Made by a program: the position numbers and the translations under genes. DNA of 64,000 nucleotides from Acinetobacter qingfengensis (lineage in GTDB: Bacteria; Pseudomonadota; Gammaproteobacteria; Pseudomonadales; Moraxellaceae): positions 62,001 to 126,000 of the forward strand of contig NZ_VXKN01000011.1 in assembly GCF_008693185.1 (NCBI RefSeq), written 5' to 3'. Below are positions 25,435 through 42,866 of the stretch, in pieces (position 1 is the first letter of the stretch; the number at the start of each line of letters is the position of its first letter). The notes beneath the pieces were generated by a model. The model was not told where the DNA came from. It saw nothing but the letters and a program-made list of their open reading frames with translations, and did not search any database.

Positions 25435-25489
25435 TAAAAAATACCTACAAATATCTATTTAGGCATTATTCATTGCTACTGTGTAGGCG

Positions 25490-25520: not shown

Positions 25521-25581
25521 TAAAAAAAACAAATAAAATTCCGTTATATAATGCATTGTTGTTATCTGAAAAATAATCGTT

Positions 25582-26307
25582 ATGTACAACACCTATTTTT
25601 CTTTAGATTTAAAAAATAAAGCCATACTTGTAGTCGAAGATGACTACGATATTGGCGATATTATTGAGCAATATTTAAAACGAGAAAATGCACTCGTTTT
25701 ACGGGCAAATAATGGTGTGCAAGCGCTTGAAATTCATGCAACCCAGCAAATAGATCTTATTTTGCTAGATGTAAAATTACCCAAGATGAATGGCTGGGAT
25801 ATTTTAAATAATATTCGTCAACATAGCCAAACGCCAGTGATCATGTTGACAGCTTTGGATCAAGATATTGATAAGGTGATGGCATTACGTATTGGTGCAG
25901 ATGATTTTATTGTTAAGCCTTTCAATCCAAATGAAATGATTGCTCGTGTACAAGCAGTTTTACGGCGCAGCCAGATACAAACTTCATCTGCAAGCCATAT
26001 TCATCGATATAAAAATATTGAAATACACACAGACACGCACGTAGTCTACATAGAAAATCTTTCGCAAAAATTAGCACTTAATTTAACGCTGACTGAATAC
26101 AAAATTTTATTATATATGCTGCCACGTCCATACAAGGTATTTACTCGTAGTGAATTAATGGCAAACTGTTTACAGGATAATGATGCTCTGGAACGAACAG
26201 TAGATAGCCATGTGAGTAAATTGCGTAAAAAATTAGAAGATCATAATGTATTTAATTTGTTAATTAATGTTCGAGGTGTTGGTTATAAATTGGATAATCA
26301 AATATGA
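25582..26307 (+). CDS. adeR: Response regulator AdeR (OmpR family)
   Basis: 241 residues. In the receiver domain, VVEDDYDIGDIIEQYLKREN holds the acidic pocket, LILLDVKLPKMNGW the phospho-acceptor aspartate, and IVKPFNPNEMI the conserved lysine. A C-terminal OmpR winged helix follows (TLTEYKILLYML, ERTVDSHVSKLRKKLE, INVRGVGYKL). The sequence follows AdeR of A. baumannii closely, including YDIGDIIE and LDQDIDKVMALRIGADDF. It controls adeAB from the divergent promoter region. Its stop overlaps the adeS start by four bases, so the two are co-translated. Confidence 0.93.
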   Translation: MYNTYFSLDLKNKAILVVEDDYDIGDIIEQYLKRENALVLRANNGVQALEIHATQQIDLILLDVKLPKMNGWDILNNIRQHSQTPVIMLTALDQDIDKVMALRIGADDFIVKPFNPNEMIARVQAVLRRSQIQTSSASHIHRYKNIEIHTDTHVVYIENLSQKLALNLTLTEYKILLYMLPRPYKVFTRSELMANCLQDNDALERTVDSHVSKLRKKLEDHNVFNLLINVRGVGYKLDNQI

Positions 26308-27377: not shown

Positions 27378-27507
27378 TTATAAAATGACTGCCCTGATAC
27401 TTACTTAAAAATTACTGCTCAGAAACCACTGATTCATATTTTGATATTGAGCTTAAACTATTCATGGTTTTGTATGACAACGCAACCAATATATTTTGCA
27501 TATCAAA

Positions 27508-28920
27508 TTAATCACTAATATTCGCAATTAATTGCTTTACAGCCATTTCAATTTCTATTGTCCATGAAAATGAGCAATTAATTCGTAAATGATTTTTTTG
27601 AGCCTGTTGAACATTAAATAATTGGCTTGGAGCAACACCAATATTCTGTTGAATTAAATGTTCATATAGGGTCATGCTACTTATATGAGAAGGTAAAGTT
27701 AACCATAAAAAATAACCGCCTGCATAATTATGAATTTCACAGCCCGTAGGAAGGTTTTTCTTAAAATATTCAAAGAAAATTCTTTTATTTTTTTCAAGAT
27801 TACGTCTAAGTACGCGTAAATGTTTTTCATAATGATGATTTGAAATAAATTCAACTAAGGCATTTTGCATCAATGTATTGGCGGAAATGGTACTCATCAG
27901 TTGCAGGTGTTGTATATGTTCAGAAAATTTACCAGCATAAACCCAACCAATTCTAAAAGTTGATCCAAGTGTTTTGGAGAAGGAGGAGCAATGTAGTACC
28001 AGATTTTGTTGGTCAAAATATTTCATTGAAAGTGGTTTTGTACCACGGTAAAAAAGTTCTTCATAAACATCATCTTCAATTAAATAGATTTGGTGTTCAT
28101 GTAGAAGTTTTGCAATCTGGAATTTAATTTTTTCACTGACGGTAAAACCAATTGGATTATGACAATTAAGCATGAACCAACAAACTTTAATCGGGTAGGT
28201 TTGAATTGCCTGTTCAAAGGCTTCTATGTCAAAACCTTCCTGTGGATGTTCGGGAATGGTAACGACTTTCAGTCCCAAACGTTCAGCAATTTGCCATGCA
28301 CCATAAAAAATAGTTTCCTGTAAAAGGATGTAATCCCCAGCTTTGGTGAGCGCTTGTAATGAAAGATTAAGCGCATCCAGACAACCGGAAGTAATCACAA
28401 TATCATCAGGCTGAGTCGGGATACCTTGCATACCATAACGTTGTGCAATTAATTTACGTAATTCAAAATTTCCGGGTGGAAGATTAATATTTTGCTCAAA
28501 GTTTTTTTTATTACGCGTCAATTGTCCCATGATTTGAATTAATTTAGGCGGATTAAGTAGCTCATGATTTGGAAAAGCTGAGCCTAATGGTACGATTTCA
28601 CTGGGTTGGATGGATTTTAGATAATTAAAGACCAAGGAGTTGATTTCAATTTTTGCATTTAGCGATACTGTCGGATTATGTGTGCTAGAAAGGCTTAATG
28701 GAGAAAATAGTTCTGCAACAAAATAACCGGACTTCTCAACAGAATAAATAAGCCCCTGAGATTCTAATTCCTGATAAGCATTGAGAACCGTCATTAAGCT
28801 TAATCCCGAGCGATTTACCTGATCACGTAATGACGGCAGTTTTTCGTTTGCTTTTAAACTGCCATTTTCAATGAGCTGTTTGATGCTATTTGCAAGCTGT
28901 TCAGATTTATACATACTCAC
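27508..28920 (-). CDS. MocR-type regulator/PLP-dependent aminotransferase-like protein
   Basis: 470 residues. The GntR-type helix-turn-helix is at the N-terminus (LKANEKLPSLRDQVNRSGLSLMTVLNAYQELESQGLI). An aminotransferase class I-like domain follows, with NCHNPIGFTVS, LIEDDVYEELFY and the PLP lysine in CSSFSKTLGSTFRIGWV. It stands alone, with adeS upstream on the other strand and the bd oxidase genes downstream on the same strand. It is of the PtsJ/YdcR-like kind by general arrangement. The target and ligand are unknown. Confidence 0.85.
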   Translation of the reverse strand: MSMYKSEQLANSIKQLIENGSLKANEKLPSLRDQVNRSGLSLMTVLNAYQELESQGLIYSVEKSGYFVAELFSPLSLSSTHNPTVSLNAKIEINSLVFNYLKSIQPSEIVPLGSAFPNHELLNPPKLIQIMGQLTRNKKNFEQNINLPPGNFELRKLIAQRYGMQGIPTQPDDIVITSGCLDALNLSLQALTKAGDYILLQETIFYGAWQIAERLGLKVVTIPEHPQEGFDIEAFEQAIQTYPIKVCWFMLNCHNPIGFTVSEKIKFQIAKLLHEHQIYLIEDDVYEELFYRGTKPLSMKYFDQQNLVLHCSSFSKTLGSTFRIGWVYAGKFSEHIQHLQLMSTISANTLMQNALVEFISNHHYEKHLRVLRRNLEKNKRIFFEYFKKNLPTGCEIHNYAGGYFLWLTLPSHISSMTLYEHLIQQNIGVAPSQLFNVQQAQKNHLRINCSFSWTIEIEMAVKQLIANISD

Positions 28921-29033
28921 CTATAAAACAATAAAATAATTAGCATTCAGAAGAAAAGATAGGCATTTTAGTGCTAACTTTTCTTTTGAATAAAGTCCAA
29001 AAAAGCGATACCAATCATTTAACAAGATAATGC

Positions 29034-29162
29034 TCATGATGAATAAGCAAACAAGAGTAATAATCTAAACAGACCAGCAATGATTGCCAATCCTAAAAAT
29101 CCTACCAACCATAACACAATAAACCATTGTGTTGATGTTAGTTCAAGCTTGAATTTTTGCAT
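29034..29162 (-). CDS. Small membrane subunit of bd oxidase, DUF2474-like
   Basis: 42 residues starting MQKFKLELTSTQWF, with one membrane helix (FIVLWLVGFLGLAIIAGLFRLLLLF). The pattern W-x-LW-x-x-G-x-x-GL ... LLRLLL is like the DUF2474 proteins encoded after CioAB oxidases, and unlike CydX. The ATG at 29162 has AAAGG about 11 bases upstream and lies 13 bp after the cioB stop. Longer upstream starts would overlap cioB. It probably stabilises the oxidase, as CydX does in E. coli; that is inference. Confidence 0.7.
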   Translation of the reverse strand: MQKFKLELTSTQWFIVLWLVGFLGLAIIAGLFRLLLLFAYSS

Positions 29163-29175
29163 CGTTATTATACCT

Positions 29176-30180
29176 TTAATGATAACCCTCATCACCAAGA
29201 CGTACTTTGTCCCTAAACACCCAATACGACAAAATAGTATAAGCAATGATGATCGGGATTAAAATGACTGCACCAATCAGGGCAAACATTTGACTAGAGC
29301 GAGGTGCGGCAGCTTCCCAAATGGTGACAGAGGGAGGAATAATATAAGGGTATAAACTAATCACAAAGCCCGTAAATGCAAGAAACACCAAAGCCAATGT
29401 ATAAATAAAAGGTTTGACGTCATTTTGTTTTTTACATGCCATTAAAATCAATATAACAAAGGCAATCACCAAGATTGGTACTGGACTGAAATACAGTAAA
29501 TTTGGCATTGAAAACCAGCGCATCGCGATTTCTGGATGAGTCACTGGTGTATATAAGCTGACTCCACCAAATACAATCAATAGCACCCAAATGAGTTTTG
29601 GCATTAACTGAAACATACGCTGTTGTAAATTTTTTTCAGTCTTTAAGATTAACCAACCACAACCTAAAGCTGCATACATCACCAGTACACCAAATCCTGT
29701 AAAGATAGAAAATGGGGTGAGCCAATCCATTGCATGTCCAGAGAATATACCATGTGTGGTTTCGATCCCTTGAATAAAAGCACCAAGCAAAATACCCTGA
29801 AGGAAGCTGGATAAAATAGAACCCCAGATAAAGGCTTGATCCCACAAATATTTCGTACGGTGTGCTTTAAATCTGAATTCAAATGCAACACCTCTAAAAA
29901 TAAGGGCAATGACCATGAGCATAATCGGCAGATAAAGTGCCGAAAGTACTGTTGAATAAACCAGAGGAAATGCTGCAAATAAACCAGCACCACCAAGCAC
30001 CATCCATGTCTCATTACCATCCCAGACAGGAGCAACAGTATTCATCATCACATCTCGTTCATCGCTGTTTTTGATAAACGGGAACAGAATACCTATGCCA
30101 AGATCAAAACCATCAAGAATAATATAAATTAATACGCCAAGCCCAATAATTGCAACCCAAACTAAAGAAAGATCAATCAT
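29176..30180 (-). CDS. cioB: Cytochrome bd-type (cyanide-insensitive, CioB) oxidase subunit II
   Basis: 334 residues from the ATG at 30180 (MIDLSLVWVAII), overlapping the end of cioA. There are about 8-9 membrane helices, with the subunit II signature YIILDGFDLGIGILFPF and PVWDGNETWMVLGGAGLFAAFPLVY. Together with CioA it forms a quinol oxidase in the inner membrane that reduces O2 to water without pumping protons. CIO-type enzymes keep working in the presence of cyanide. It lies between cioA and the DUF2474-like gene in one operon. Confidence 0.88.
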   Translation of the reverse strand: MIDLSLVWVAIIGLGVLIYIILDGFDLGIGILFPFIKNSDERDVMMNTVAPVWDGNETWMVLGGAGLFAAFPLVYSTVLSALYLPIMLMVIALIFRGVAFEFRFKAHRTKYLWDQAFIWGSILSSFLQGILLGAFIQGIETTHGIFSGHAMDWLTPFSIFTGFGVLVMYAALGCGWLILKTEKNLQQRMFQLMPKLIWVLLIVFGGVSLYTPVTHPEIAMRWFSMPNLLYFSPVPILVIAFVILILMACKKQNDVKPFIYTLALVFLAFTGFVISLYPYIIPPSVTIWEAAAPRSSQMFALIGAVILIPIIIAYTILSYWVFRDKVRLGDEGYH

Positions 30181-31618
30181 GATTTTTCTCCTGTCTAACA
30201 TCTGTATCATCTATGCTTTCATCAACAGCACTTAATGGACGCATAGGGGTTTTAAAATGACCAAGACCAGCAATTTCAGGTTTCTGTGAATAAATAAATT
30301 CAGGACCTTTAAACAGTAACTTTGCAATATAATAAATACCGCTACCAAAGACAATGGTATATACCGCCACAAAAATAATCAGGGTTAAGCCGACTTGATC
30401 CGCAGAAACAGTGTGTGATAGTCCTTCCTTAGTTCGCATCACACCATAAATGACCCAAGGTTGTCTTCCGACTTCAGTTGTGACCCAACCAGCCAATAAG
30501 GCGATATATCCACTTGGCCCCATGATGAAGGCAAATTTATGAAACCAAGATGTCTCATACAGTCTGTTACGTTTTCTTAACCATAAGGCAATGAGGGAAA
30601 GTGTGACCATCAACATTCCTAAACCAACCATGACCCGAAAACTCCAGAAAACAATAGTGACATTTGGACGATCTTCTGCTGCAAAGTCTTTTAATCCAGT
30701 TACTGTCCCGTTCAGACTATGCTTGAGAATGATACTGCCGAGATTAGGAATACCAATTTCATATTTATTCTGTTCATTCTCCATGTCTGGAATCGCAAAC
30801 AACAATAAAGGCATACCATGATCATGATTGGTTTCCCAATGACCTTCGATTGCTGCCAGTTTGGTAGGCTGATGTTCTAGCGTATTCAAACCATGATTAT
30901 CTCCAATAAAAACTTGTGCAAGAGAAGTGACTAAAACCATCCATAATCCCATAGAGAAAGACTTTTTAATCAGCTCATCTCTACGACCTTTAATCAAATG
31001 CCATGCTGCTGTACCAACCACCAATAGAGCTGAAACTAGAAATGCAGCCGTTGCCATGTGAGCAAAACGATAAGGAAATGATGGATTAAATACGATTGCC
31101 CACCAGTCTTGTGGCACAATAATTCCATTTTCGATAGCAAAACCTTGTGGTGTTTGCATCCAGCTATTAGAAGACAAAATCCAGAACATAGAAATACATG
31201 TTCCTATGGCCACCATAAGTGTTGCAAAAAAGTGTGCCTTGCGGCTAACACGTCCCCAACCAAAAAGCATAATGCCAAGAAATCCAGCTTCAAGGAAAAA
31301 TGCACTCAATACTTCATAGGTGAGCAGTGGGCCTGTGACACTACCAGCGATACGAGAGAATTCACTCCAGTTTGTGCCAAATTGGTAGCTCATGACGACT
31401 CCGGACACAACCCCCATACCAAATGCAACAGCAAAGATTTTGATCCAGAATTTGAATAAATCCTGATAAATTGGGTTATTCGTCCTCAACCACCGCCACT
31501 CAAGCATTGCTAAAAAACAGGCTAAGCCAATTGAAGTAGCAGGAAAAATAATATGAAAGGATACTGTAAAAGCAAACTGAATCCTCGCAAGTTCTAATGC
31601 TGTTAGACCGAGATCCAT
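30173..31618 (-). CDS. cioA: Cytochrome bd-type (cyanide-insensitive, CioA) oxidase subunit I
   Basis: 481 residues, shorter than E. coli CydA (about 520), because the periplasmic Q-loop is short, as in CIO-type oxidases. The N-terminal haem-ligand region is FTVSFHIIFPATSIGLACFLAMLEWRWL. Other markers are GVVSGVVMSYQFGTNW, a quinol-site region FIGDNHGLNTLEHQPTKLAAIEGHWET, and GRQPWVIYGVMRT. It is the catalytic haem-bearing subunit and the first gene of the cioAB operon. A 290-bp region separates it from a divergent unit with a CysI-type reductase. The cyanide-insensitive class is inferred from length and the DUF2474 neighbour. Confidence 0.88.
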   Translation of the reverse strand: MDLGLTALELARIQFAFTVSFHIIFPATSIGLACFLAMLEWRWLRTNNPIYQDLFKFWIKIFAVAFGMGVVSGVVMSYQFGTNWSEFSRIAGSVTGPLLTYEVLSAFFLEAGFLGIMLFGWGRVSRKAHFFATLMVAIGTCISMFWILSSNSWMQTPQGFAIENGIIVPQDWWAIVFNPSFPYRFAHMATAAFLVSALLVVGTAAWHLIKGRRDELIKKSFSMGLWMVLVTSLAQVFIGDNHGLNTLEHQPTKLAAIEGHWETNHDHGMPLLLFAIPDMENEQNKYEIGIPNLGSIILKHSLNGTVTGLKDFAAEDRPNVTIVFWSFRVMVGLGMLMVTLSLIALWLRKRNRLYETSWFHKFAFIMGPSGYIALLAGWVTTEVGRQPWVIYGVMRTKEGLSHTVSADQVGLTLIIFVAVYTIVFGSGIYYIAKLLFKGPEFIYSQKPEIAGLGHFKTPMRPLSAVDESIDDTDVRQEKNHD

Positions 31619-31911
31619 CAGTTGTCTCCTGTAAGATTGTTTATTTAATAAACAGAATTAAACTCACAAGAATCTTCTTATATCTGGAATATAATTTGAA
31701 TATATAGCTTTAAGATTAAAAACTATAACAGATAGAATATATATCTATTATTTTAAAACCAAATCCATGAAATTATTAAAATAATAAAATAAATTACAAG
31801 CACTTATGTCTTATATTGATTAAATTTTCTGTTATGGTTTTTAATTCTATTTCTGTAACTTGCAACACCATCTGTTTTAAGTAGAGAATATCTACTAATT
31901 ATCTATGATTA

Positions 31912-32739
31912 ATGGTGCATATTAAAATGTTTTATACGCAGCAATTGGATGTTATACCGTATTTATTAATAGGACAAGAATGGTCTGATAAGGTACAAAA
32001 AAAATTACATCATGAATATTTAAACCTTGAAGCCACCTTGCTAAGAGCAAAAGTTCTTAGAAGCCTTGCTGAACCAAAATTAACTTATGTCGTACAATCA
32101 CATATTCATTCACAAAGTAGTGACTTGGCATATATGTTTATTCCCTTTGTATTTGCAAATATTAATAAAAAAACAATATATAGCACACCTGCAACACAGA
32201 CAGTATTGAACATTCTTAATAAGTATTATCAAGTTGATATTAATCGTAAACTTAATATTGATACTGCTTTAAATGCTCTAAATATGTATATAGATTTATC
32301 TGATCCACAAGTAGAAAGTGATGAATTTTTTTATATAAATCTAATAAAAGCACTATGTCGCAATGATATTTATACAATATTTTTAATTACTAGTAATCAA
32401 ATTGATCAAGAAAAAATAAAGTCTTTATCTGAATTTTTAAAGGTTGATATTTTTGTCATTTCAACTCAGGACCAGCAAAAAATTATAGATAGCCAACTCG
32501 TTAATATGCGAAAATTATTATTTAAAAATAAGGATGAAGAATATATTAAGTTATGTGCTCTATTTTCAAAGAAAAATGCTGAACTATTGACACAGATAGA
32601 AATTTTAAACAGTCTTCAAGCCAAGAATTTTATTGAAGATATGTTTTATGCCGAGCATATTTATGAAAAACTTTCTGTATATGCTGAATATGTACAAACT
32701 CAAATTCAATACATAAATACCAGTCAAAAAATCAGCTAA
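31912..32739 (+). CDS. Protein of unknown function, first gene of the CysI-type unit
   Basis: 275 residues with no signal peptide or membrane helix and no recognised family. A segment at about 150-190 (IYTIFLITSNQIDQEKIKSLSEFLKVDIFVIST) looks like a beta-alpha-beta unit. Much of the rest is helical and rich in Lys, Ile, Asn and Tyr, with AT-rich codons. A start at 31927 (MFYTQQL) is as plausible as 31912; neither has a clear ribosome site. It lies 41 bp before the sirohaem reductase gene on the same strand and is probably co-transcribed with it. A regulatory or accessory role for that enzyme is only a guess. Confidence 0.65.
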   Translation: MVHIKMFYTQQLDVIPYLLIGQEWSDKVQKKLHHEYLNLEATLLRAKVLRSLAEPKLTYVVQSHIHSQSSDLAYMFIPFVFANINKKTIYSTPATQTVLNILNKYYQVDINRKLNIDTALNALNMYIDLSDPQVESDEFFYINLIKALCRNDIYTIFLITSNQIDQEKIKSLSEFLKVDIFVISTQDQQKIIDSQLVNMRKLLFKNKDEEYIKLCALFSKKNAELLTQIEILNSLQAKNFIEDMFYAEHIYEKLSVYAEYVQTQIQYINTSQKIS

Positions 32740-32780
32740 TCAGCTATTGAAATATAAAGTAATTAACAAAGGTAATCCCC

Positions 32781-34424
32781 ATGTTTTTATATTCTGATTT
32801 TGATCAAAATTTGTTAAATGAACGTGTTGCCCAATTTAGAGATCAAACTAATCGTTATTTGGCCGGCAAATTGACAGAAGATGAGTATCGTCCATTACGG
32901 TTACAAAATGGATTGTATATTCAACGCTATGCGCCAATGTTGCGTATAGCTGTACCTTATGGACTCATGAATTCTAAACAATTAAGGAAACTGGCTGAAA
33001 TATCTAGAGTCTATGATCGGGGCTATGCACATATTTCAACCCGCCAAAATATTCAATTGAACTGGCCTAATCTTGAAGATGTACCAGACATTATTGAGCA
33101 GCTTGCAAATGTACAAATGCACTCCATTCAAACCAGTGGAAATTGTATCCGCAACACAACCACAGACCAATATGCAGGCGTTGTTGCTGATGAAGTTGCA
33201 GACCCCCGACCCACATGTGAATTGATTCGGCAATGGAGTACATTCCATCCCGAATTTTCATTTTTACCTAGGAAATTCAAAATTGCTGTGTGTGCACATC
33301 AGCAGGAAGATCGGGCTGCAACCAGCTTTCATGATATAGGTGTATATTTAGTTAGAAATGAAAAAGGGCAATTGGGATATAAAATTAAAGTAGGTGGGGG
33401 CCTTGGAAGGACACCGATAATTGGTGTAGTAATTCGTGAATTCTTGGCTCAGGAAGATCTTATTGCCTATCTGGATGCGATTTTACGTATTTATAACCTA
33501 CACGGGCGGCGTGATAATAAGTACAAGGCACGTATTAAAATTTTAGTAAAATCCCTGACACCTGAAGTATTTGCACAAAAAGTTGAAAAGGAATTTTTGA
33601 TTACCCAAAGTAATCTCAGAATAGAAAAATCGGCATTAGAAAAAATGAATAATGCTTTTAAACCCTTTAACTATCAGAATCTCGAAGATGAAAATTTGGA
33701 TAACTTATTTGAACAATATCCAAAATTTAAGCACTGGTTTAATGTAAATACTTACCCACATAAGGTTAAAGGTTATCGGATTGTGACTATCTCTTTAAAG
33801 CGGGCAGGTGTTGCCTCTGGAGATATAACCGCAGAAGAAATGGAACTCATTGCAGATTTAGCAGATAAATTTACCTATGGTGAATTAAGAACGACACATG
33901 AACAAAATATTGCTCTCACAGATGTTGCTCAAAAGAATCTCTTTCATCTTTGGAAAGCCTTAGATCAGGTCAATTTGGCAAGAGCTCATATTGGTTTTTT
34001 GACAGATATTATTTGCTGTCCCGGTGGTGATTTCTGCTCATTGGCAAATGCCAAATCCATCCCTGTATATGAAGCAATTATGCGAAAATTTGATGATCTG
34101 GACACAATTTATAATTTAGGCAAAATTGATTTAAATATTTCAGGTTGTATGAATGCCTGCGGGCATCACCATGTAGGTCATATTGGTATTCTGGGGGTAG
34201 ATAAAAAAGGTGCTGAATTTTATCAAATTACTTTGGGTGGTAATTCAGGACATAGTGCCGCAATTGGTAATATTCTAGGACCATCATTTCCAGCAGAAGA
34301 TATTCCAGAGGTTATTGAAGAAATTTTAAATACTTATCTAGATTTAAGAGAAAAAGGTGAATCATTTTTAGAAACCTATTACCGAGTATCCATTCAGCCA
34401 TTTAAACAACGTGCTTATGCATAG
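32781..34424 (+). CDS. cysI: Sirohaem [4Fe-4S] sulfite/nitrite reductase, CysI-type
   Basis: 547 residues. Two ferredoxin-like half-domains precede the cluster: YAHISTRQNIQLNWP and IQTSGNCIRNTTTDQYAG in the first half. The cluster/sirohaem cysteines lie in ICCPGGDFCSLANAKS and SGCMNACGHHHVGH. It is of the pseudomonad CysI type, with the RYLAGKLTEDEYRPLRLQNGLYIQRYAPMLR start region. It reduces sulfite to sulfide with electrons from ferredoxin or a flavoprotein. The usual small DUF934 partner gene does not follow; instead a CidA/LrgB pair does. Its location beside cioAB suggests a specialised isoform. Confidence 0.85.
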   Translation: MFLYSDFDQNLLNERVAQFRDQTNRYLAGKLTEDEYRPLRLQNGLYIQRYAPMLRIAVPYGLMNSKQLRKLAEISRVYDRGYAHISTRQNIQLNWPNLEDVPDIIEQLANVQMHSIQTSGNCIRNTTTDQYAGVVADEVADPRPTCELIRQWSTFHPEFSFLPRKFKIAVCAHQQEDRAATSFHDIGVYLVRNEKGQLGYKIKVGGGLGRTPIIGVVIREFLAQEDLIAYLDAILRIYNLHGRRDNKYKARIKILVKSLTPEVFAQKVEKEFLITQSNLRIEKSALEKMNNAFKPFNYQNLEDENLDNLFEQYPKFKHWFNVNTYPHKVKGYRIVTISLKRAGVASGDITAEEMELIADLADKFTYGELRTTHEQNIALTDVAQKNLFHLWKALDQVNLARAHIGFLTDIICCPGGDFCSLANAKSIPVYEAIMRKFDDLDTIYNLGKIDLNISGCMNACGHHHVGHIGILGVDKKGAEFYQITLGGNSGHSAAIGNILGPSFPAEDIPEVIEEILNTYLDLREKGESFLETYYRVSIQPFKQRAYA

Positions 34425-34443
34425 TTAAATATGGCTTAATTAG

Positions 34444-34791
34444 ATGTTTAGTTTAAAAGTTAGTATCCAAATCATTCTTCTTATGATGATTTGGTATCTG
34501 CTTGATCAATTACTGCAAAGTTTACAACTTACAATGTCTGCAAGTGTTTTAGGATTGTTTTTGCTGTTATTAAGTCTAAAAAACAACTTGTTACCAGTAA
34601 GTTATGTGCAGGATGGTGGACATTTTTTATTAAAAAATATGCTGTTATTTTTTATTCCACCTGTAGTTGGACTCGTGCAATACACGGATATTTTGCTTGA
34701 AAATGGAATCAAGATATTTACCGCAATATTTCTTGGAACATTAATCGTTATGTACAGTTCAAAAATCACTGTACATTTTCTAATGAAATAA
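34444..34791 (+). CDS. CidA/LrgA-family membrane protein
   Basis: 115 residues with four membrane helices. The family pattern is QLTMSASVLGLFLLLLSLKNNLLP in helix 2 and DGGHFLLKNMLLFFIPPVVGLVQY. CidA/LrgA proteins are small holin-like membrane proteins, and recent work links them with LrgB partners to pyruvate or other metabolite movement. It starts 20 bp after the CysI-type gene and 28 bp before the LrgB-type gene, so all belong to one unit. Confidence 0.82.
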   Translation: MFSLKVSIQIILLMMIWYLLDQLLQSLQLTMSASVLGLFLLLLSLKNNLLPVSYVQDGGHFLLKNMLLFFIPPVVGLVQYTDILLENGIKIFTAIFLGTLIVMYSSKITVHFLMK

Positions 34792-34818
34792 AATTTTAAA
34801 TAATATATTGGTCAGGCA

Positions 34819-35505
34819 ATGAACTGGATAAGTCTATTTTTCTTTATTTTAACCGTAATATTATATTTTTTGGCTAAAAAAATCTATGAAAGAAAGCCGT
34901 TCTTCCTATTTTCACCGATTATTTTTGTGCCATGTATAATAATAAGTGTATTGCTAATCTCAGGGATGTCTTTTGATGAATATTATTATTATACCAAGTA
35001 TTTGGTCTGGATGCTTGGTCCAATTACGATTACATTTGCAATTCCATTGTATCAATATGGGCATTTAATTAAGCATTATTTTAAGGTGCTATGTATTACC
35101 TCTTTGGTAGCAATAATCACTGGATTACTAAGTAGTTATCTTTTTGCATATTTATTTAGTTTTAATGATGTGATTAGTAAAAGCCTATATGTAAGATCTG
35201 TTTCTATTCCATTTGCTTTAACCATCACTGAGCAAATTCAGGGGTCATTGAGTTTAGTTCCTTTATTTACTGTTATTACAGGATTGGTAGGCATGATTTG
35301 TGGTGATATTATCCTTGGAAAAAGCTCTAAGCGTTATATTTTAGCCAATGGTAGTGCGTTGGGAAATGCTGCTCATGCGATGGGTGTAGCAAAAGCACAA
35401 CAACGAGATATACAAGAGGCAGTAATTGCAAGTTTATCTTTAATTATTTCTGGTGTGTTGCTAGTGGTTTTAAGCTGCTTATTTTTACTGTTTAGCCAAA
35501 CTTAA
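34819..35505 (+). CDS. LrgB/CidB-family membrane protein
   Basis: 228 residues with about 7 membrane helices. The family signature is present: LGPITITFAIPLYQYG, SVSIPFALTITEQIQGSLSLVPLFTVITGLVG and GSALGNAAHAMGVAKAQQRD. It is the partner of the CidA/LrgA-type protein just upstream. The two together have been linked to murein hydrolase activity and to pyruvate transport in other bacteria. Its presence at the end of a reductase unit is unusual. Confidence 0.85.
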   Translation: MNWISLFFFILTVILYFLAKKIYERKPFFLFSPIIFVPCIIISVLLISGMSFDEYYYYTKYLVWMLGPITITFAIPLYQYGHLIKHYFKVLCITSLVAIITGLLSSYLFAYLFSFNDVISKSLYVRSVSIPFALTITEQIQGSLSLVPLFTVITGLVGMICGDIILGKSSKRYILANGSALGNAAHAMGVAKAQQRDIQEAVIASLSLIISGVLLVVLSCLFLLFSQT

Positions 35506-35911
35506 AAATATTTTTTGATGTAATAACATATTTTTTAATCAGTCATGATGATATTTCAATATATTGATATTTATCAAGTTGATCTGATTGTATTTATGCT
35601 CAAAAAATAGCTATTCTGTTATAGTGTATTAGTTAAAATCTGTATATTTTAAAAATTACATAGAGCAATCATAATTCTATCATGAATTAACTTTTAACAG
35701 ATACGTTATTCAGATTCAAAAAGATGATTCTATCTTTTATTGTGTTACGATCTTTATTTGATTGCTTTAATCAAACTTGATAGAGGCAAAATTGACACAG
35801 TAAAAGTATCATTTTTCAAACAATTAAATATACTATCAATAGATATTATTCTTTTTTAAAGAAAACATCGTACATTTGTAAGTATATTTTTCTATAAAGG
35901 TTAAGTTGATT
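35506..35911. other. AT-rich intergenic region
   Basis: About 400 bp after the LrgB-type gene. No frame, hairpin or repeat of note is seen before the small frame at 35912. Confidence 0.5.
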
Positions 35912-36016
35912 ATGAAAGAATTTTTAAAGCGCAAGAACAAAACTTGGTTTGTATTTTTTATCATGATTGTATATTCTATTATAGGTTTTGGTCTTGGATT
36001 TTTTATTTATAAATAA
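35912..36016 (+). CDS. Possible 34-residue single-helix membrane protein
   Basis: An ATG is preceded by TAAAGG (35895-35900, 11 bases upstream). It encodes a basic start (MKEFLKRKNKTW) and one hydrophobic helix (FVFFIMIVYSIIGFGLGFFIY), ending in K. This is the make-up of many small bacterial membrane proteins. AT-rich DNA can give such frames by chance and no homologue is recognised, so it is a candidate only. It stands alone between the LrgB-type gene and the end of the sigma-54 activator gene. Confidence 0.4.
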   Translation: MKEFLKRKNKTWFVFFIMIVYSIIGFGLGFFIYK

Positions 36017-36184
36017 AATTTCAATGATAAAATAAAATTAGTTACCGATTTATAATATAGTTATTAATTTTATTAAAAATCAAATTATCATTTATTAATA
36101 TTACAAAATAACTTTAAATATTAATGTATCTTAATAAGATATCGCTTTTTAATTAAAATATTATTATAAAAAACCAAAACTAAA

Positions 36185-38119
36185 TTAATATTTTATTTCT
36201 AATTTTTTTAACCTTGATATTAAAGTAGTTGGATTAATACCTAATAATTTAGCAGCACCATCTTCACCAAAGACTTTGCCATCACACTGTTTGATTGCCA
36301 ATGTTAGATTATGGATCTCCAGTTCTTTGAGTTGTTGGATAGTAAAAACCTGTTCTGGCTCTGGTACAGTTCTATTGTGCTGACGAGCCTGATTCTGTGT
36401 ATTCTCATGCTCAAGTAGATATTTGAATGAAATAATGCCTTGCTTGGCAGTAATTAAGGCTCGCTCTATGACATTCTGTAATTCACGAATATTACCCGGC
36501 CAATCATATTGCTGTAATTCCAGAATATGTTTTTGAGAAAATGGTAGATACTGTATTTTCCGACCATCACTAATCAGCTTGCTAAAATGGGAAACCAATA
36601 ACGGAATATCCTGTTTTCGGTCACGTAGGGCAGGAGAGTGAATTGGAAAAACATTGAGTCTGAAGTATAAATCCTCACGGAAATTCTTGAGTTTGACTTC
36701 CTGTTGTAAGTTACGATTGGTTGCTGCAATAATTCGGACATTAACATGCCGAGTTTTTTCTTCACCGATGCGCTCAAATGTGCCTTCTTGTAATACACGG
36801 AGTAATTTACTCTGTAATTCTAAGGGGATTTCCCCAATTTCATCTAGGAATAATGTCCCTTGATCTGCCAATTCAAATCGTCCAGCACGGTCACGCACTG
36901 CACCTGTAAAAGCCCCTTTAACATGACCAAAGAACTCACTTTCAAATAGTTCAGATGGAATAGCAGCACAATTGACACGAATCAAAGGGTGTTGTTTTCG
37001 GTGACTGGATTGGTGTATTGCTCTGGCAATTAATTCCTTACCTGTGCCCGATTCGCCATAAATCATCACATTGGCATCAGTTGGAGCAACGACTTTAATT
37101 TTTTCGATAATTTGTAGAATTGCTGGACTGTTACCTACAATTTCATGGTATTGATTTTCTTGTAGAATTTCTTCCTGTAAATATTCGTTTTGTTGTTCTA
37201 GGCGACTTTTTAATTCCTGTAATTCTTCTAAAGCATGAGTAAGTTGTTTTTCGGTATTCAGTCGGTCTGTAATGTCTCGAAATACGACAACTGCACCGAC
37301 AATTTCACTGTCACGAATAACAGGTGTACTGGTAAACTCTACGGGGAAATAACTACCATCTCTTCGCCAGAAAATTTCCTGTATACCTTCATGTACAACG
37401 CCATCCTGAACAGCAGCATAGATAGGACATTGTTCAACTGGATAATGATCGCCATTTTCATGAGTATGGTGGTGGATTTTATGAATGTTTTTACCAAGTA
37501 CAGCTTCGGGTTCCAAACCCAGCATTTTTGCACCGACAGGATTAATAAAGGTACATAATCCCTGTTTATTAATACTGTAAATACCATCTCCGACAGAACT
37601 GAGAAGCAGATGTTTACCTGTATCAGATTCTATAAATAATTCCTGTAGTGCCTGCCATTCCTTTAAGCCTGCTTTAATAACTTTATCTACATTTCTATTC
37701 AATTGACGTAATTCTAAATCTTTGACATCAACAAGCGACCAAATCAGTAATGACCGATTTTTATAAGTGATCAGAATTGAAGTGACATCAAGTTGTATTT
37801 TTTCGCCTTCCTTGTCAAAAGCATATAGCTCATTGTTCCATGCCCAACCTTTTGTTAAGGCTTCCTCAGTAAAAGCAATAAGCTGGGGTAACTGACTGAA
37901 ATGTCCAAAAATTGAGGTTACAGTTTTTTGGATCAGTTCATGTCGCTCATAACGCAACAACTGTGTAGCACTGATATTGACATCGACAAAACAATTTTGA
38001 TGAGGGTCAATTACAATCAGCGCCTGAGACGTATGTTCAAATGCCAATGGACGAATAGAGTCTTCAGTGGCATTCCAGTCAGAAATAAAGTCAGTGTTGG
38101 GCATACTATGAACTTTCAT
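36185..38119 (-). CDS. nitA: PAS-domain sigma-54-dependent activator, probable regulator of the Nit1C cluster
   Basis: 644 residues. There are two PAS domains (about 20-130 and 165-285; the second contains [25 protein letters not shown]). A coiled coil follows (about 287-320), then the AAA+ sigma-54 interaction domain with Walker A GESGTGKE, the sigma-54 contact loop GAFTGA, and Walker [15 protein letters not shown] Fis-type helix-turn-helix is at the C-terminus ([20 protein letters not shown]). ATG 38119 or 38104 could be the start; neither has a strong ribosome site. It is divergent from the nitrilase operon, whose promoter is of -24/-12 type, so it is almost certainly the activator. The PAS ligand is unknown. 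Confidence 0.9.
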
Positions 38120-38162
38120 AATTTTAACTATGAAAAATCATAATACTATGAAAAATCGTAAT
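38105..38162. promoter_or_regulatory. Three repeats, candidate upstream activator sites
   Basis: The 18-bp units ACTATGAAAAATCATAAT (38127-38144) and ACTATGAAAAATCGTAAT (38145-38162) are head to tail. A related unit, ACTATGAACTTTCATAAT, lies at 38105-38122. Each has the dyad ATGA-N4-TCAT (one base off in the last tandem copy). They sit 100-157 bp upstream of the -24 element, the usual distance for enhancer sites of sigma-54 activators. They overlap the activator's own start region, so autoregulation is possible. Confidence 0.65.
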
Positions 38163-38261
38163 TATCTAGTGGTTTTTTATCATGATAAAATGATGCTAAG
38201 TAAAAAATAAATTAATATATTTCAATTAAATATAGAAATATTTATATCTTAAAAAAACAAC

Positions 38262-38279
38262 TTGGCACAGCTCTCGCAA
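38262..38279 (+). promoter_or_regulatory. Sigma-54 (-24/-12) promoter of the Nit1C operon
   Basis: TTGGCACAGCTCTCGCAA has the invariant GG (38264-38265) and GC (38276-38277) exactly 10 bases apart and fits the consensus TGGCAC-N5-TTGC apart from TCGC. Transcription would begin near 38289, about 50 bp before the first gene. Confidence 0.85.
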
Positions 38280-38337
38280 TAACAGGGACAAACCAGACAA
38301 ATGGTTGATTGTCAGTAGCATTAAAAGAGGAACTGCT

Positions 38338-38820
38338 ATGCCAAAAGTTGATATTGAGCAATACAAAGACGGTGACTTTCTCGTTGATTATGAAGAGAAA
38401 GTATTTGAAGACGTAAAGGCACAGCCGGGTGAGAAAGCTCTAGTGACATTTCATACAGTAGCCTTTGAAGGTTCGATTGGTCTAGTTAATGTCTTACAGG
38501 CAAAACGCTTATTACGTAAAGGCTTTGAGACCAAAATTCTTCTCTATGGCCCAGGTGTACAACTTGGCGTACAGCGTGGTTTCCCGACACTAGGGGCAGA
38601 AGCATTTCCGGGGCATCTGGCTGTAAATAATCAGCTTAAAGCATTTATGCAGGAAGGTGGTGAAGTTTATGCCTGCCGCTTTGCACTACAAGCATTATAT
38701 GGCCAAACAGAAAAGGCATTAATTGAAGGTATTCGTCCAATCAATCCTTTAGATGTAATGGATCTCAAACTTTTAATGCGTCGTGACAATGCATTAATCA
38801 TTGATACATGGACTGTTTAA
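38338..38820 (+). CDS. nitB: NitB-type protein (MSMEG_0572/Sll0783 family)
   Basis: 160 residues. The ATG at 38338 follows AAGAGG at good spacing; an earlier in-frame ATG at 38305 has no site. The [23 protein letters not shown] start and the [28 protein letters not shown] segment match the small protein that opens Nit1C clusters, annotated as a nitrogen-starvation response protein. A DsrE-like fold with FHTVAFEGS is possible. No enzymatic role is established. It is the first gene after the sigma-54 promoter. Confidence 0.82.
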
Positions 38821-38846
38821 GCATCTAACAATAAGGGGAATAAGAC

Positions 38847-39839
38847 ATGAGCCAAATCATTAAAGCTGCGGCAGTACAATGTAGTCCAGTGCTATATAGC
38901 CAATCTGGTACGGTTAAAAAAATCTGTGACACGATTCTGGAGTTAGGCAAACAGGGTGTACAGTTTGCAGTCTTTCCTGAAACAGTTGTGCCTTATTACC
39001 CTTACTTTTCTTTTGTTCAACCTCCATTTGCAATGGGTAAAGAACATCTCAAACTTCTTAAAGAGTCTGTCGTTGTACCCTCAGAGGCAACACATTTAAT
39101 TGGTCAAGCCTGTCGTGAAGCGCAAATGGTGGTTTCAATTGGGGTGAATGAGAGAGCTGGCGGCACGATCTATAACGCCCAATTATTGTTTGATGCTGAT
39201 GGTTCTATGATTCAGCACCGCCGAAAAATTACACCAACCTACCATGAACGCATGGTATGGGGACAAGGTGACGGTAGTGGTTTAAGTGCGATTGATTCAG
39301 CAGTAGGACGTATCGGTTCACTGGCATGTTGGGAGCATTATAACCCGTTGGCACGTTTTGCCTTGATGGCAGATGGTGAACAAATTCATGCCGCAATGTT
39401 TCCGGGCTCTTTAGTCGGGCAAATATTTGCCGACCAAATCAGTGCAACCATTCAACACCATGCTTTGGAGTCTGGTTGTTTTGTGGTGAATGCTACCGCA
39501 TGGCTGTATCCAGAACAGCAGCAGCAGATTATGCAAGATACAGGTTGTGATATTGCGCCAATCTCTGGCGGCTGTTTTACCGCCATCGTTTCTCCAGAAG
39601 GAAAATTTCTAGCAGAACCGATTACACAGGGCGAAGGTTATTGTATTGCTGATCTGGATTTTGGTCTGATTGATAAGCGTAAACGCATGATGGATTCAGT
39701 AGGACATTATAGTCGTCCGGAACTATTAAGCCTGCTGATTGATCGTCGCCCAACACAGTTACTACATGAACTTAAACTAGAAACTGTATCGAAAAGTACA
39801 TTGGAAAAAATCTCCGAGTTTGCTGAAGAAAATATCTAG
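38847..39839 (+). CDS. nitC: Nitrilase of the Nit1 class (NitC)
   Basis: 330 residues. The catalytic triad of the nitrilase superfamily is E45 ([12 protein letters not shown]), K127 ([11 protein letters not shown]) and C161 ([15 protein letters not shown]). It hydrolyses nitriles to acids and ammonia. In Pseudomonas, the Nit1C nitrilase is needed for growth on cyanide, with cyano-derivatives of keto acids as likely substrates. It is second in the operon, 26 bp after nitB, with AAGGGGAATAAG before the ATG. Confidence 0.92.
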
Positions 39840-39869
39840 CAAATGACATGAAATCAACAGGAGAATGCG

Positions 39870-40952
39870 ATGTCTGCAATTGAGTTATTAAGTGATTTGC
39901 AATGCAATGGACTCAAATGGGAAGGTGAAATTGGACTCTCCCGTAAAGGTGGGGCTGGGCCAAGTGATCACAAGGCATTGAGTCTGAATGGTCAAACCAT
40001 GATGATTCCTGTGCTAAATCTTGCTGCTGTGGAAGACTCACCCTATACCGGTAAAAAAGATCCCGATACAGGTGAAGTGGTTGTATTTAAAAATCGGATT
40101 CCTGTCGCCACACTGTCAGCACCTGCACGTCCAAGATTTTATGATTTAACCACAGTCGATGGCATTCCCTATGAACAAATTGCAACTTTACATAGCCATG
40201 ATGTATTAGCGACCACAGTATTACAGCATTGCATTCGCATGAATGATAAATCAACCGCCTGTCAATTCTGTTCCATAGATCAATCCTTGAAAGATGGTCG
40301 AACACTGATTCGTAAACGTCCTGAACAATTGGCAGAGGTTGCCAAAGCGGCTGTAGAGCTAGATGGTGTCACACAGATGGTGATTACCACTGGGACACCC
40401 AATACACCTGATCGTGGTGCTGAAATTCTGTATGACTCAGTAAAAGCAATAAAGGCACAAGTCGATTTGCCTATACAGGTGCAATGTGAACCGCCAGATG
40501 ATTTTGCATGGTTTCAGAAACTCAAAGATGCTGGTGCAGTATCTATAGGCATGCATCTGGAAGCAGTCAGTGATCGGGTTCGGAAAAAAATTATGCCGGG
40601 AAAAGCAGAAGTTTCCCTTGAGGTTTATTTTGCTGCTTTTGAAGCTGCTGTTCGGATATTTGGTCGAGGTCAGGTCAGCACTTATATCTTGGCTGGTCTG
40701 GGTGATACCGAAGAAGAAATTATCAGCATGACAGAACGACTGGCAGAAATTGGTGTTTATCCCTTTGTTGTTCCTTTTGTTCCAATTCAGGGAACAGCGT
40801 TACAGCACCATTCAAAACCAGACCAGAGCTTTATGCAAAGGCTTTACCCTCAAATTGGTCATCAGTTGCGTCAATATGGGCTGAATTCTGAACAAACTAA
40901 AGCAGGCTGTGCCAAATGTGGGGCTTGCTCATCATTAAAAGCTTATGAGTAA
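39870..40952 (+). CDS. nitD: Radical SAM protein (MSMEG_0568 family, NitD)
   Basis: 360 residues. The cluster motif is non-canonical: C-x9-C-x2-C in HCIRMNDKSTACQFCSIDQ. A TIM-barrel core follows (TQMVITTGTPNTPDRGAEI, IQVQCEPPDDF). The C-terminus has a further cysteine set (AGCAKCGACSS), which may bind a second cluster. It belongs to the conserved Nit1C set; its reaction is unknown. It is preceded by CAGGAG. The C-terminus overlaps the earliest possible start of the next gene. Confidence 0.88.
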   Translation: MSAIELLSDLQCNGLKWEGEIGLSRKGGAGPSDHKALSLNGQTMMIPVLNLAAVEDSPYTGKKDPDTGEVVVFKNRIPVATLSAPARPRFYDLTTVDGIPYEQIATLHSHDVLATTVLQHCIRMNDKSTACQFCSIDQSLKDGRTLIRKRPEQLAEVAKAAVELDGVTQMVITTGTPNTPDRGAEILYDSVKAIKAQVDLPIQVQCEPPDDFAWFQKLKDAGAVSIGMHLEAVSDRVRKKIMPGKAEVSLEVYFAAFEAAVRIFGRGQVSTYILAGLGDTEEEIISMTERLAEIGVYPFVVPFVPIQGTALQHHSKPDQSFMQRLYPQIGHQLRQYGLNSEQTKAGCAKCGACSSLKAYE

Positions 40953-40962
40953 GGAGATTGTG

Positions 40963-41526
40963 ATGGAATTATCCCGTTATCCGTGGCTGATTGAGCTCAA
41001 TGAAGACCTAAAACAGTTTATTACTGATGACATTATTATCAAAGTTATCACTGATGATTGGGAGCATTCTCAGTATTACCAACTGCGAGAAGCAACCTTC
41101 CGTGATGAGCAAAAAATTCTGAAAGAAGATCGTGATGAACATGATTTTAAAGCACTCGGTATTGTAGCGATTGGACAAATGTTTGGAGAACATGACCGTG
41201 TGATCGGTGCAGTTCGTATATTCCCTGAAAATAAACAATGTTGGTGGGGTGGTCGTTTATGTGTAGAACCTTTATATCGGCATCATCATGCGATTGGTAA
41301 AGCCCTGATTAATGCGGCGGTTTCTACGGCTAAAAATCTAGGTTGTCAGACTTTCTTGGCGACGGTGCAACAACAAAACGAGCGATATTTCCAAAAGTTA
41401 TGCTGGGACAGTGTTCGGGAACTCACCGTTGCCAATATTCCGCATGTGTTGATGCAAGCCCAAATTAAGCAATATCCATTACAGCACGTCATCATGCAGG
41501 CTTATAGTTATCGGGAGCTTTGCTGA
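40963..41526 (+). CDS. nitE: GNAT-family acetyltransferase (MSMEG_0567/Sll0786 N-terminal type, NitE)
   Basis: 187 residues from ATG 40963, which has AAGGAG seven bases upstream; the in-frame ATG at 40945 lies inside nitD and has none. The fold is GNAT: YYQLREATFRDEQKI, IGAVRIFPENKQCWWGGRLCVEPLYRHHHAIGKALINAA. In some genomes this domain is fused to the AIR-synthase-like protein that follows; here the two overlap only at TGATG. It is part of the conserved Nit1C set; the substrate is unknown. Confidence 0.85.
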   Translation: MELSRYPWLIELNEDLKQFITDDIIIKVITDDWEHSQYYQLREATFRDEQKILKEDRDEHDFKALGIVAIGQMFGEHDRVIGAVRIFPENKQCWWGGRLCVEPLYRHHHAIGKALINAAVSTAKNLGCQTFLATVQQQNERYFQKLCWDSVRELTVANIPHVLMQAQIKQYPLQHVIMQAYSYRELC

Positions 41527-42866
41527 TGATGCTTTTAGATTTATTAACAGCGTTAAAGAATACCTCTGCAATGCGTTCCAAACAGGATATTCAACATAAT
41601 GCGATACAACATTCTTCCACGCATCTACACACTTTAGATGATGTATATGCCTTACCTGCTGATGATACCGCAGCTATTCGTATGGGAGAGCAATATTTGC
41701 TACATGCGTGTGAAGGCATGATTCCAAACTTTGTTGCCAATCATCCTTACTTTGCAGGTTGGTCGGCAGTCATGGCAAATGTCAGTGATATTGCAGCGAT
41801 GGGGGGCAAGGCATTAACTGTGGTAAATAGCTATTGGCACACAGACGCAGAAAATGCTGAACAACTGATTCAGGGTATTCAGGCAGCATGTGAAGTCTAT
41901 GAGGTTAAATTAGTCGGTGGACATACCAATATTCAGGCAGATTTTCAGCCTGCCTTGGCTGTAGCCATTCAAGGTGTCGCTACGCAATTATTGTCTGTTT
42001 TCCATGTGCGTACAGGACAAAAAATTCTGGTTGCCCTGAATTTAAAAGGCAAATTCCACCCTGATACCACTTACTGGAAATGTTTTGAAAACGTACCAGC
42101 AAGTCTTTTACGGACACAACTTGCACTTTTACCAGAAATTGCAGAGCAGGGACTTGCCTATGCTGCACGAGATATTAGCAATGCAGGCATTCTTGGCAGC
42201 CTCTTGATGTTATTAGAAGCGACTGGATCTGGTGCAAAGATCGACCTGAATAACATTCCTAAACCCCAAGAGATTGAGTGGCTCAAGTGGTTACAGATTT
42301 TTCCCAGCTATGGCTTTTTACTCACCGCAGATCAGGAAGAGTGTGAAGACATTATTGAACTATTTGCTTCCCAGGATATTGATTGTGCAGTGATTGGTGA
42401 AGTCACCGATTCAGGAAAAATAGAAACTCAATTACAGGCCGAACAGCATATTTTCTGGGATTTTCAGCAAGAGTCATTCACTGGACTGAATTATCAGCAA
42501 ATGCTGAAACAGTGTGATTTTTTTTCCATCTTTAACCGGAACGGATGTAAAGCAACAGATACAGGAGCAGCCTACATGCCAAGCGTAAATTTTACTGTGA
42601 AGTGGCCAAATGGCGAAACTGGACAATATTACTCACCCTCTACAGTGATTTATGAATATTTAAATAGCGGGCAAGACTACGCTTTAGATGATTTTCTTAA
42701 ACAAGTTGAAAATGGTCTAAATAAAGCCTCGGATCGAGTTCGTATGCGTTACGGTTTTGCATGTAGTGCAGCAATGGATAACCTCGCCACGATTAAACGC
42801 CAAATAAACATATTGGGACTTACCGCCCAGGATCGTATCGAAATTATTGAAATGACGAATGAATAG
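41526..42866 (+). CDS. NitF (AIR-synthase-like) joined in frame to NitG (MSMEG_0570-type)
   Basis: 446 residues from ATG 41526, after GGGAG (an upstream TTG is unlikely). Residues 1-about 335 are a PurM/AIR-synthase-like ATPase of the Sll0787 family (DDTAAIRMGEQYLL, VGGHTNIQ, ARDISNAGILGSLLMLLEATG). The last 97 residues (from M at 42576, MPSVNFTVKWPNGETGQYYS) are a complete NitG-type protein, normally separate. An intact ribosome site AGGAG still precedes that ATG. The join passes a run of eight T (42518-42525); one added T would end NitF at once (DFFFHL then TAA). So this is either a real fusion, a slippage site, or a sequencing error. The functions of both parts are unknown. Confidence 0.85.
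   Translation: MMLLDLLTALKNTSAMRSKQDIQHNAIQHSSTHLHTLDDVYALPADDTAAIRMGEQYLLHACEGMIPNFVANHPYFAGWSAVMANVSDIAAMGGKALTVVNSYWHTDAENAEQLIQGIQAACEVYEVKLVGGHTNIQADFQPALAVAIQGVATQLLSVFHVRTGQKILVALNLKGKFHPDTTYWKCFENVPASLLRTQLALLPEIAEQGLAYAARDISNAGILGSLLMLLEATGSGAKIDLNNIPKPQEIEWLKWLQIFPSYGFLLTADQEECEDIIELFASQDIDCAVIGEVTDSGKIETQLQAEQHIFWDFQQESFTGLNYQQMLKQCDFFSIFNRNGCKATDTGAAYMPSVNFTVKWPNGETGQYYSPSTVIYEYLNSGQDYALDDFLKQVENGLNKASDRVRMRYGFACSAAMDNLATIKRQINILGLTAQDRIEIIEMTNE

Follow-up and report, generated by a model that had tools for sequence, protein, structure and literature searches.

A TrpD-fold putative pseudoenzyme, a duplicated sulfite reductase and an LrgAB pair divergent from cioAB in a candidate cyanide-response locus of Acinetobacter

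The window analysed here is a 64,000-nucleotide stretch of contig NZ_VXKN01000011.1 of Acinetobacter qingfengensis (contig C11 of genome G000 in our collection), whose nearest named relatives are Acinetobacter. Four co-directional genes code for X275 (a 275-residue protein), SiR (a CysI-type sirohaem reductase), LrgA and LrgB. They lie divergent from cioA and cioB, the genes of a cytochrome bd oxidase whose operon ends with the gene of a MocR-type regulator. The locus is a variant of the published MocR/CioAB/CysI cyanide cluster, and its most surprising part is X275, a putative pseudoenzyme that appears to derive from TrpD, the anthranilate phosphoribosyltransferase. The model that we favour, and hold to be fairly probable as a whole, is that the locus makes up one arm of a cyanide-response regulon in Acinetobacter.

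The first-pass annotation, made from the DNA sequence alone, had reported this four-gene unit and connected it with cyanide handling; the observation is confirmed, while its interpretation is partly supported. The unit is real and its order recurs in named loci and on Acinetobacter soli plasmids. Neither outcome that the first-pass annotation had named as refuting its view came about: gene order is conserved, and a housekeeping cysI lies elsewhere but with different neighbours. The intergenic gaps measure 41, 19 and 27 bp, in agreement with the earlier figures for the first gap but not for the other two (given as 20 and 28 bp). The setting seen as cyanide-related also holds, with the MocR-type regulator, a bd-type oxidase called CioAB and adjoining nit1C-type genes.

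Operator and gene content of the locus

A common regulatory signal links X275 to cioAB. The motif TATAACAG emerged from Gibbs sampling of 52 dereplicated intergenic regions and is present in nearly all of them. Exact half-sites number 149, against 2.3 expected, in the 74 regions left from 81 loci when the seven without a divergent gene within 700 bp are set aside. The inverted pair TATAACAG-N19-21-CTGTTATA precedes X275 in 53 of these 74 regions; shuffling the regions gave no pair in 19 of 20 sets and a single one in the other. The pair is also found at all four tested cioAB copies without an intact X275 next to them, in G073, G079 and G040 by script and in G067 by eye, there with one mismatch (G040 keeps a 65-residue X275 fragment at its cioAB copy). 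It was found at none of the 34 other cioA genes fetched. CioA of the four split copies is 84-85% identical to that of the window and CioA of the 34 others 74-81%, so that the contrast is one between two cioA classes, within the part of the CioA places that was fetched. The pair is likewise absent upstream of the genome's own cysI and trpD, while the A. soli plasmid pA0075 also has the operator. This distribution is strong evidence, drawn from sequence comparison, that one regulator serves both cioAB and the X275 unit, and from gene linkage we infer that this regulator is MocR.

Additional copies of the signal occur elsewhere. Seven loci (L097:8074, L110:5378, L139:8138, L143:8132, L144:8396, L155:8404 and L165:5316) have another exact operator pair immediately past the mocR 3' end. 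No open reading frame (ORF) of at least 60 amino acids in the non-overlapping list starts there, and the pair might mark an extra target or an antisense promoter. A lone exact half-site CTGTTATA is present downstream of LrgB at positions 35616-35623 of the window, and also in A. puyangensis behind a piece of the SiR gene; three such half-sites in 64 kb correspond to chance expectation.

The neighbourhood of X275 was surveyed in 80 named loci, the best of 91 that encode a relative, with flanks limited to 10 kb and, for some loci, shorter contigs. Linkage to MocR and CioAB was found: a MocR match is present in 73 loci, CioAB in 48, DUF2474 in 47, LrgAB in 14 (not downstream of X275 in one of them, L100) and SiR in 5. 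All 80 are from Acinetobacter bar one Moraxellaceae metagenome-assembled genome. Across 144 genomes X275 occurs in 57, the present one included, and is confined to one of 49 genera; relatives were also found in A. nosocomialis and A. pittii, and the type strain of A. baylyi (L140) has MocR together with X275. Within the genus it accompanies CioA, being encoded in 55 of 74 CioA-positive genomes versus 2 of 15 CioA-negative ones (Fisher p 1.5e-5, a value that ignores descent). Four distant members (L084, L085, L086 and L090) have X275 downstream of cioAB on the same strand, followed in three of them by a gene that is MocR-like by eye. The conserved core, as judged from these gene contents, is thus the MocR regulator, CioAB and X275, while SiR and LrgAB, further along in the X275 unit, are optional.

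The order of the four genes is kept in other Acinetobacter species. SiR directly follows X275 in L093, L109, L112, L120 and L166, and LrgAB comes after SiR in four of the five, the contig of L112 stopping at that point; start/stop junctions overlap in some loci of this order. X275 and SiR are both present on six A. soli plasmids (CP119202, CP119212, CP119217, CP119240, CP119252 and NZ_CP137058). The two A. soli plasmids examined in detail have MocR-DUF2474-CioB upstream, then X275-SiR-LrgA-LrgB, and one carries nit genes too. Such recurrence in named loci and on plasmids rules out a chance gene order. It is also highly improbable that SiR and LrgAB are passengers landed by chance near the core and outside the response: their optional presence (5 and 14 of 80) would fit this, but the order recurs in several species, in some with overlapping junctions, stands on both A. 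soli plasmids examined in detail and has a counterpart beside MocR in Pseudomonadaceae (NirA-like-DUF934-LrgA-LrgB, see below).

In A. puyangensis, the nearest relative (X275 86% identical), X275 is followed by a stretch of 25 codons that matches the beginning of SiR and then, by eye, by sequence resembling the window region downstream of LrgB. These remnants suggest that the gene order of the window may be older than that of A. puyangensis. The A. soli plasmids with X275, SiR and CioA come from human isolates, and the CioA match is split in two in CP119202 and CP119212. In L042, L045 and similarly arranged loci X275 precedes same-strand genes that look like an acyl-CoA dehydrogenase, a luciferase-type monooxygenase and a transporter; by eye they resemble genes for acquisition of sulfur compounds, a possible further link of X275 to sulfur.

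Fold and descent of X275

X275 is tagged 'hypothetical protein' on annotated A. soli plasmids, and the earlier statement that it belongs to no known family stands for the sequence libraries. Its best Pfam hit has an E-value of 0.059, with nothing over the cut-off, and 37 further members scanned likewise gave no match. NCBIfam returned no match at E up to 1, a profile search of the PDB none at E 10 and PADLOC none; Rfam had no match in the window. The Pfam domains PF00591 and PF02885, both strong in a control TrpD, were not detected in X275. A hit to Diguanyl_cycl_sensor is unsupported, the sigma-54 protein having given an equal score. When 390 genomes of the order were searched with a profile, the sole match beyond X275 itself was to the carboxyl terminus of a TrpD in G045, of the same genus.

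The statement does not extend to structure. The AlphaFold2 model of X275, built from 58 sequences, has a pLDDT of 92.3 and a pTM of 0.91. Its top Foldseek match in the PDB is A. baylyi TrpD (4gtn; E 1.5e-6, TM-score 0.51 on the query and 0.43 on the target), though in a loose superposition (root-mean-square deviation, rmsd, 9.4 over 332 columns). VIA-align also gives 4gtn as best match, with Z 13.6 over 230 residues and rmsd 4.4. The top 50 VIA rows are all TrpD or nucleoside phosphorylases, and among 999 chains 118 reach a Z of at least 8, with just 8 more between 5 and 8. This confident model predicts that X275 has the TrpD fold, composed of a helical N domain and an alpha/beta domain.

Sequence comparison points to the TrpD of the genus itself. 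The carboxyl-terminal motif D..Y....EK.SV..E...T is common to X275 and Acinetobacter TrpD and is not found in the other TrpDs tested. A profile of X275 scores all 31 Acinetobacter TrpDs at 2.0-20.0 bits, while the 29 that were scored of 31 other TrpDs fall below 0. Conversely, 134 of 137 X275 sequences (some species are included twice) score above 5 bits with a profile of Acinetobacter TrpD, versus none of 505 scored controls, from 822 shuffled or reversed sequences made. A profile of other TrpDs exceeds 5 bits for none of the 131 X275 sequences scored out of 137 and for one of 529 scored controls (5.8). Comparison of X275 with Acinetobacter TrpDs in hhalign gives P 1.7e-5 with a probability of just 55; neither other-family TrpDs nor a combined TrpD set with global settings gave a successful match. 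Homology over the full length thus rests on the carboxyl-terminal motif and the fold, and, the similarity being short and the full-length comparison weak, descent of X275 from Acinetobacter TrpD is likely, not proven.

The likeness to TrpD, and to 4gtn in particular, covers nearly the whole chain and the carboxyl-terminal motif, but X275 is shorter (275 residues versus 350 in the genome's own TrpD) and has no active-site signatures. GTGG and KHG, present in 62 of 62 TrpDs, are absent from all 137 X275 sequences, as is N.STA. GTGGD is described as the conserved loop of TrpD that binds phosphoribosyl pyrophosphate (PRPP) (PMC9835598). The ratio of nonsynonymous to synonymous substitution rates of X275 against A. 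puyangensis is 0.205. With the PRPP-loop motifs missing, X275 has the appearance of a pseudoenzyme that arose within the genus and evolves under purifying selection. The simplest reading of these sequences is that a trpD duplicate in the Acinetobacter line would have lost its active site and gained a new role, for which non-catalytic binding is our best guess.

Two other roles were weighed. X275 might keep a small-molecule site of new specificity and be a true enzyme or a sensor; a cyanohydrin or nitrile would be one example of its target. A set of residues is indeed strongly conserved in X275 (R50, K205, K207, N222, D243, Y246, E248, H249, E252 and K253); several of them are, however, common to the carboxyl-terminal stretch of TrpD and need not be catalytic, and we regard this role as unlikely. 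X275 might instead be a nucleic-acid-binding protein of TrpD2/YbiB type recruited to the locus. TrpD2 is described as having the TrpD-superfamily fold without the PRPP motif (PMC9835598, PMC10123104), a combination found in X275 too. The descent signal differs: the carboxyl terminus of X275 matches Acinetobacter TrpD, in profile comparisons limited to TrpDs, and the same genome has a separate gene taken for TrpD2, which together leave this role very improbable. Charge does not discriminate, with isoelectric points of 6.3 for X275 and 6.4 for the putative TrpD2. The gene of the latter (G000:C2:99645-100340, L176), the second TrpD-superfamily gene noted, lies by eye beside an endonuclease III-like gene.

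SiR, the LrgAB pair and neighbouring genes

The domains expected of a CysI-type reductase and a CidA/LrgB pair, as first annotated, are present. SiR carries the Pfam domains NIR_SIR and NIR_SIR_ferr (the ferredoxin-like half) and has all of Cys 413, 419, 456 and 460 of the conserved cysteine motif, which we take to be the cluster ligands. Its identity is 77% with the housekeeping CysI of its own genome and no higher than 67% with the matches listed from other genera in 244 genomes of the order. Housekeeping cysI is on contig C6, which excludes SiR as the sole or housekeeping CysI. By eye its neighbours differ from those of SiR: an aldehyde dehydrogenase gene and, after it, a gene of DUF934 type, which is absent behind the extra copy.

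In a tree of the reductases the Acinetobacter paralogues (window, G016 and G067) form one clade (100/99) inside the Acinetobacter CysI group (100/100). Far from it stands the NirA-like clade of MocR loci (100/100), made of four Pseudomonadaceae sequences assigned by gene content. The housekeeping CysI sequences are not clearly one clade (2 changes). Of 22 positions that set the NirA-like sequences apart, two of them insertions, SiR shares none. Nine SiR positions are fixed otherwise than in 28 housekeeping copies, including S171C, four residues past an RKFK stretch. The separate clades and the lack of NirA-like positions exclude SiR as a NirA orthologue; by tree and residues it is a duplicated CysI, not a NirA-like enzyme.

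LrgA and LrgB score over their Pfam cut-offs and stay under the NCBIfam cut-offs; the two domains lie in adjacent genes, as in CidAB/LrgAB and PftAB (YsbAB) pairs. Pyruvate transport has been reported for LrgAB and PftAB (YsbAB) pairs of several Gram-positive bacteria. By this analogy the window pair, which unlike those systems sits in a sulfite-reductase/oxidase locus, is a probable pyruvate-channel pair, and transport of keto acids by it is plausible. In the literature searched, which left most subscription journals outside, no report was found that combines LrgAB with cyanide or with MocR and sulfite reductase.

Features of the locus are collected in Table 1. The MocR sequence contains SFSK, which we take to be the lysine motif for pyridoxal 5'-phosphate (PLP). 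CioAB is presumed to be of the cyanide-insensitive type from size and context, the bd-oxidase Pfam domains alone having been computed. Plasmid pA0075 has an annotated DUF2474 homologue at the position equivalent to the small membrane protein gene, and the nit1C-type proteins match annotated nit genes of A. soli plasmid pAS843-2. Directly before mocR, at 21155-27377, genes of a resistance-nodulation-division efflux pump and a divergent two-component system were recognised by eye. Beside the cio locus of A. kyonggiensis (L165:2569-4788), ORFs of repeated LPCRQLR-type units are apparently a translated CRISPR array.

Table 1. Positions of the genes and operator half-sites in the window.
Feature	Position	Strand	Basis
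MocR-type regulator, last gene of the cio operon	27508..28920	-	Pfam GntR and Aminotran_1_2
DUF2474-like small membrane protein, 42 amino acids	29034..29162	-	Pfam DUF2474, E 0.0066, under cut-off
CioB, cytochrome bd oxidase subunit II	29176..30210	-	Pfam Cyt_bd_oxida_II
CioA, cytochrome bd oxidase subunit I	30173..31618	-	Pfam Cyt_bd_oxida_I
Operator half-site TATAACAG, cioA side	31724..31731		
Operator half-site CTGTTATG, X275 side, one mismatch	31829..31836		
X275, TrpD-fold putative pseudoenzyme, 275 residues	31912..32739	+	Predicted fold; PRPP-loop motifs missing
SiR, second sirohaem sulfite/nitrite reductase, paralogue of housekeeping CysI	32781..34424	+	
LrgA, CidA/LrgA family membrane protein	34444..34791	+	Pfam LrgA, 78 bits (cut-off 28)
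LrgB, LrgB/CidB family membrane protein	34819..35505	+	Pfam LrgB, 179.7 bits (cut-off 25)
nit1C-type cluster beside the unit	36185..42866	sigma-54 regulator (-), then NitB-NitF-like genes (+)	ORFs; Pfam for the sigma-54 regulator
Nitrilase within the nit1C-type cluster	38847-39839	+	

Cyanide response and proposed model

The unit had been described as no known operon, which is too strong. In strain CECT5344 (Pseudomonas pseudoalcaligenes/oleovorans) a cio cluster linked to cyanide has, as the window does, a divergent MocR, an extra CysI (CysI3), an uncharacterised protein (CioC, BN5_1901) and CioAB (PMC8567248, PMC6368324, PMC11049912). CysI3, CioC and CioA are marked R, for the cyanide residue, in a table of PMC8567248, which also cites unpublished data that a mocR mutant makes the cluster proteins constitutively. 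That cluster contains in addition SerC, HisC, ArgD, DapA, MetF, CysM and Nit4 (PMC11049912); unlike in the window, LrgAB is not among the genes described in the accessible text of these papers. None of SerC, HisC, ArgD, DapA and Nit4 was recognised by eye among the ORFs at 24000-42866 of the window, where no homology search was made for them. The mpaR/nirA/ccoN4 cluster of P. aeruginosa likewise has a MocR-type regulator beside a sirohaem reductase and a terminal-oxidase gene; its regulator MpaR is reported to control ccoN4 and neighbours in response to cyanide (PMC10790758). NirA of this species is described as a cyanide-tolerant reductase, with CysI activity lost at 100 µM KCN (PMC12688703).

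Of the MocR relatives in other Pseudomonadales, the best 17 (34-39% identical) were inspected: SiR lies near 4 of them, LrgB near 2, and CioAB and nit genes near 1 each. One such locus (L260) has NirA-like-DUF934-LrgA-LrgB beside CcoG-MocR, a row that also bears on the claim of novelty, and another (L267) has LrgA-LrgB divergent from CcoG-MocR. The 30 best Pseudomonadaceae LrgB loci, picked for similarity to such an LrgB and viewed with 1.5 kb flanks, show the NirA-like-DUF934-LrgA-LrgB row in 6, CcoG next to LrgAB in 22 and neither in 2. The reductases of these MocR loci, taken for NirA, differ from SiR not only in clade: they come with DUF934 and CcoG and without X275. By gene content, the Pseudomonadaceae association is a second and apparently independent pairing of MocR with such genes. 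The putative cyanide-response role of the Acinetobacter locus is, by analogy with these systems, well supported by context.

In the model that we favour, MocR would sense cyanide via PLP, as proposed for MpaR, and switch both arms. CioAB would keep respiration going, and the extra CysI copy would sustain sulfite (or nitrite) reduction once the housekeeping sirohaem enzyme is inhibited. More speculatively, LrgAB may move pyruvate or related keto acids; these would capture cyanide in the form of cyanohydrins, destined for the neighbouring nitrilase. X275, which would descend from a duplicate of the trpD of Acinetobacter itself, could be a non-catalytic binder of a ligand or of a protein partner, and might support cyanide-resistant respiration or its control. 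A specific combination, in which a TrpD copy became a non-catalytic factor for cyanide-resistant respiration that the PLP-dependent cyanide sensor co-switches with CioAB through a bidirectional operator, LrgAB exporting keto acids that trap cyanide, is tentative and in our judgement somewhat doubtful.

Several observations weigh against the favoured model. The operator halves of the window are atypical, being 97 bp apart with one half mismatched, and 21 of the 74 regions, that of the window included, have no standard operator pair. The MpaR operator, ATCTGAT, differs from the TATAACAG/CTGTTATA operator. The link to MpaR and to MocR of CECT5344 runs through relatives merely 34-39% identical to the window MocR, whose gene content fits the mpaR description in part. 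Cyanide tolerance of SiR is unsupported, since it is without the residues specific to the NirA-like enzymes of MocR loci, and the window LrgB is merely 27-28% identical to Pseudomonadaceae LrgBs. X275 adjoins MocR without adjacent CioAB in many species, where it may serve MocR and not the oxidase. Finally, NitC is encoded in merely 5 of 89 genomes of the genus.

The scarcity of nitC would suit a broader role, in which the regulon would react to inhibition of respiration of any kind (low oxygen, nitric oxide, H2S or redox stress), SiR serving sulfite/H2S or nitrite balance and LrgAB handling overflow pyruvate when respiration is slow. CioAB of P. aeruginosa has been linked to tolerance of H2S and nitric oxide (PMC10968556), and a connection of LrgAB with pyruvate and oxygen state is reported in Gram-positive bacteria. 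Those MocR-type relatives of such loci that have been studied, however, are reported to respond to cyanide, and a sirohaem reductase, a classical cyanide target, stands beside MocR in two lineages. A general response of this kind therefore seems rather unlikely to us, and the cyanide-response regulon is retained as the favoured model.

The analysis offers an identity for a protein labelled 'hypothetical protein'. X275 would exemplify an enzyme losing its active site and joining a new regulon inside one genus and, if its proposed role is true, a new pseudoenzyme class. A defined, testable operator is also provided for a cyanide-type response in Acinetobacter. The presence of sirohaem reductase and CidA/LrgB genes beside MocR in two families suggests that movement of keto acids and reduction of sulfite or nitrite belong to bacterial cyanide defence.

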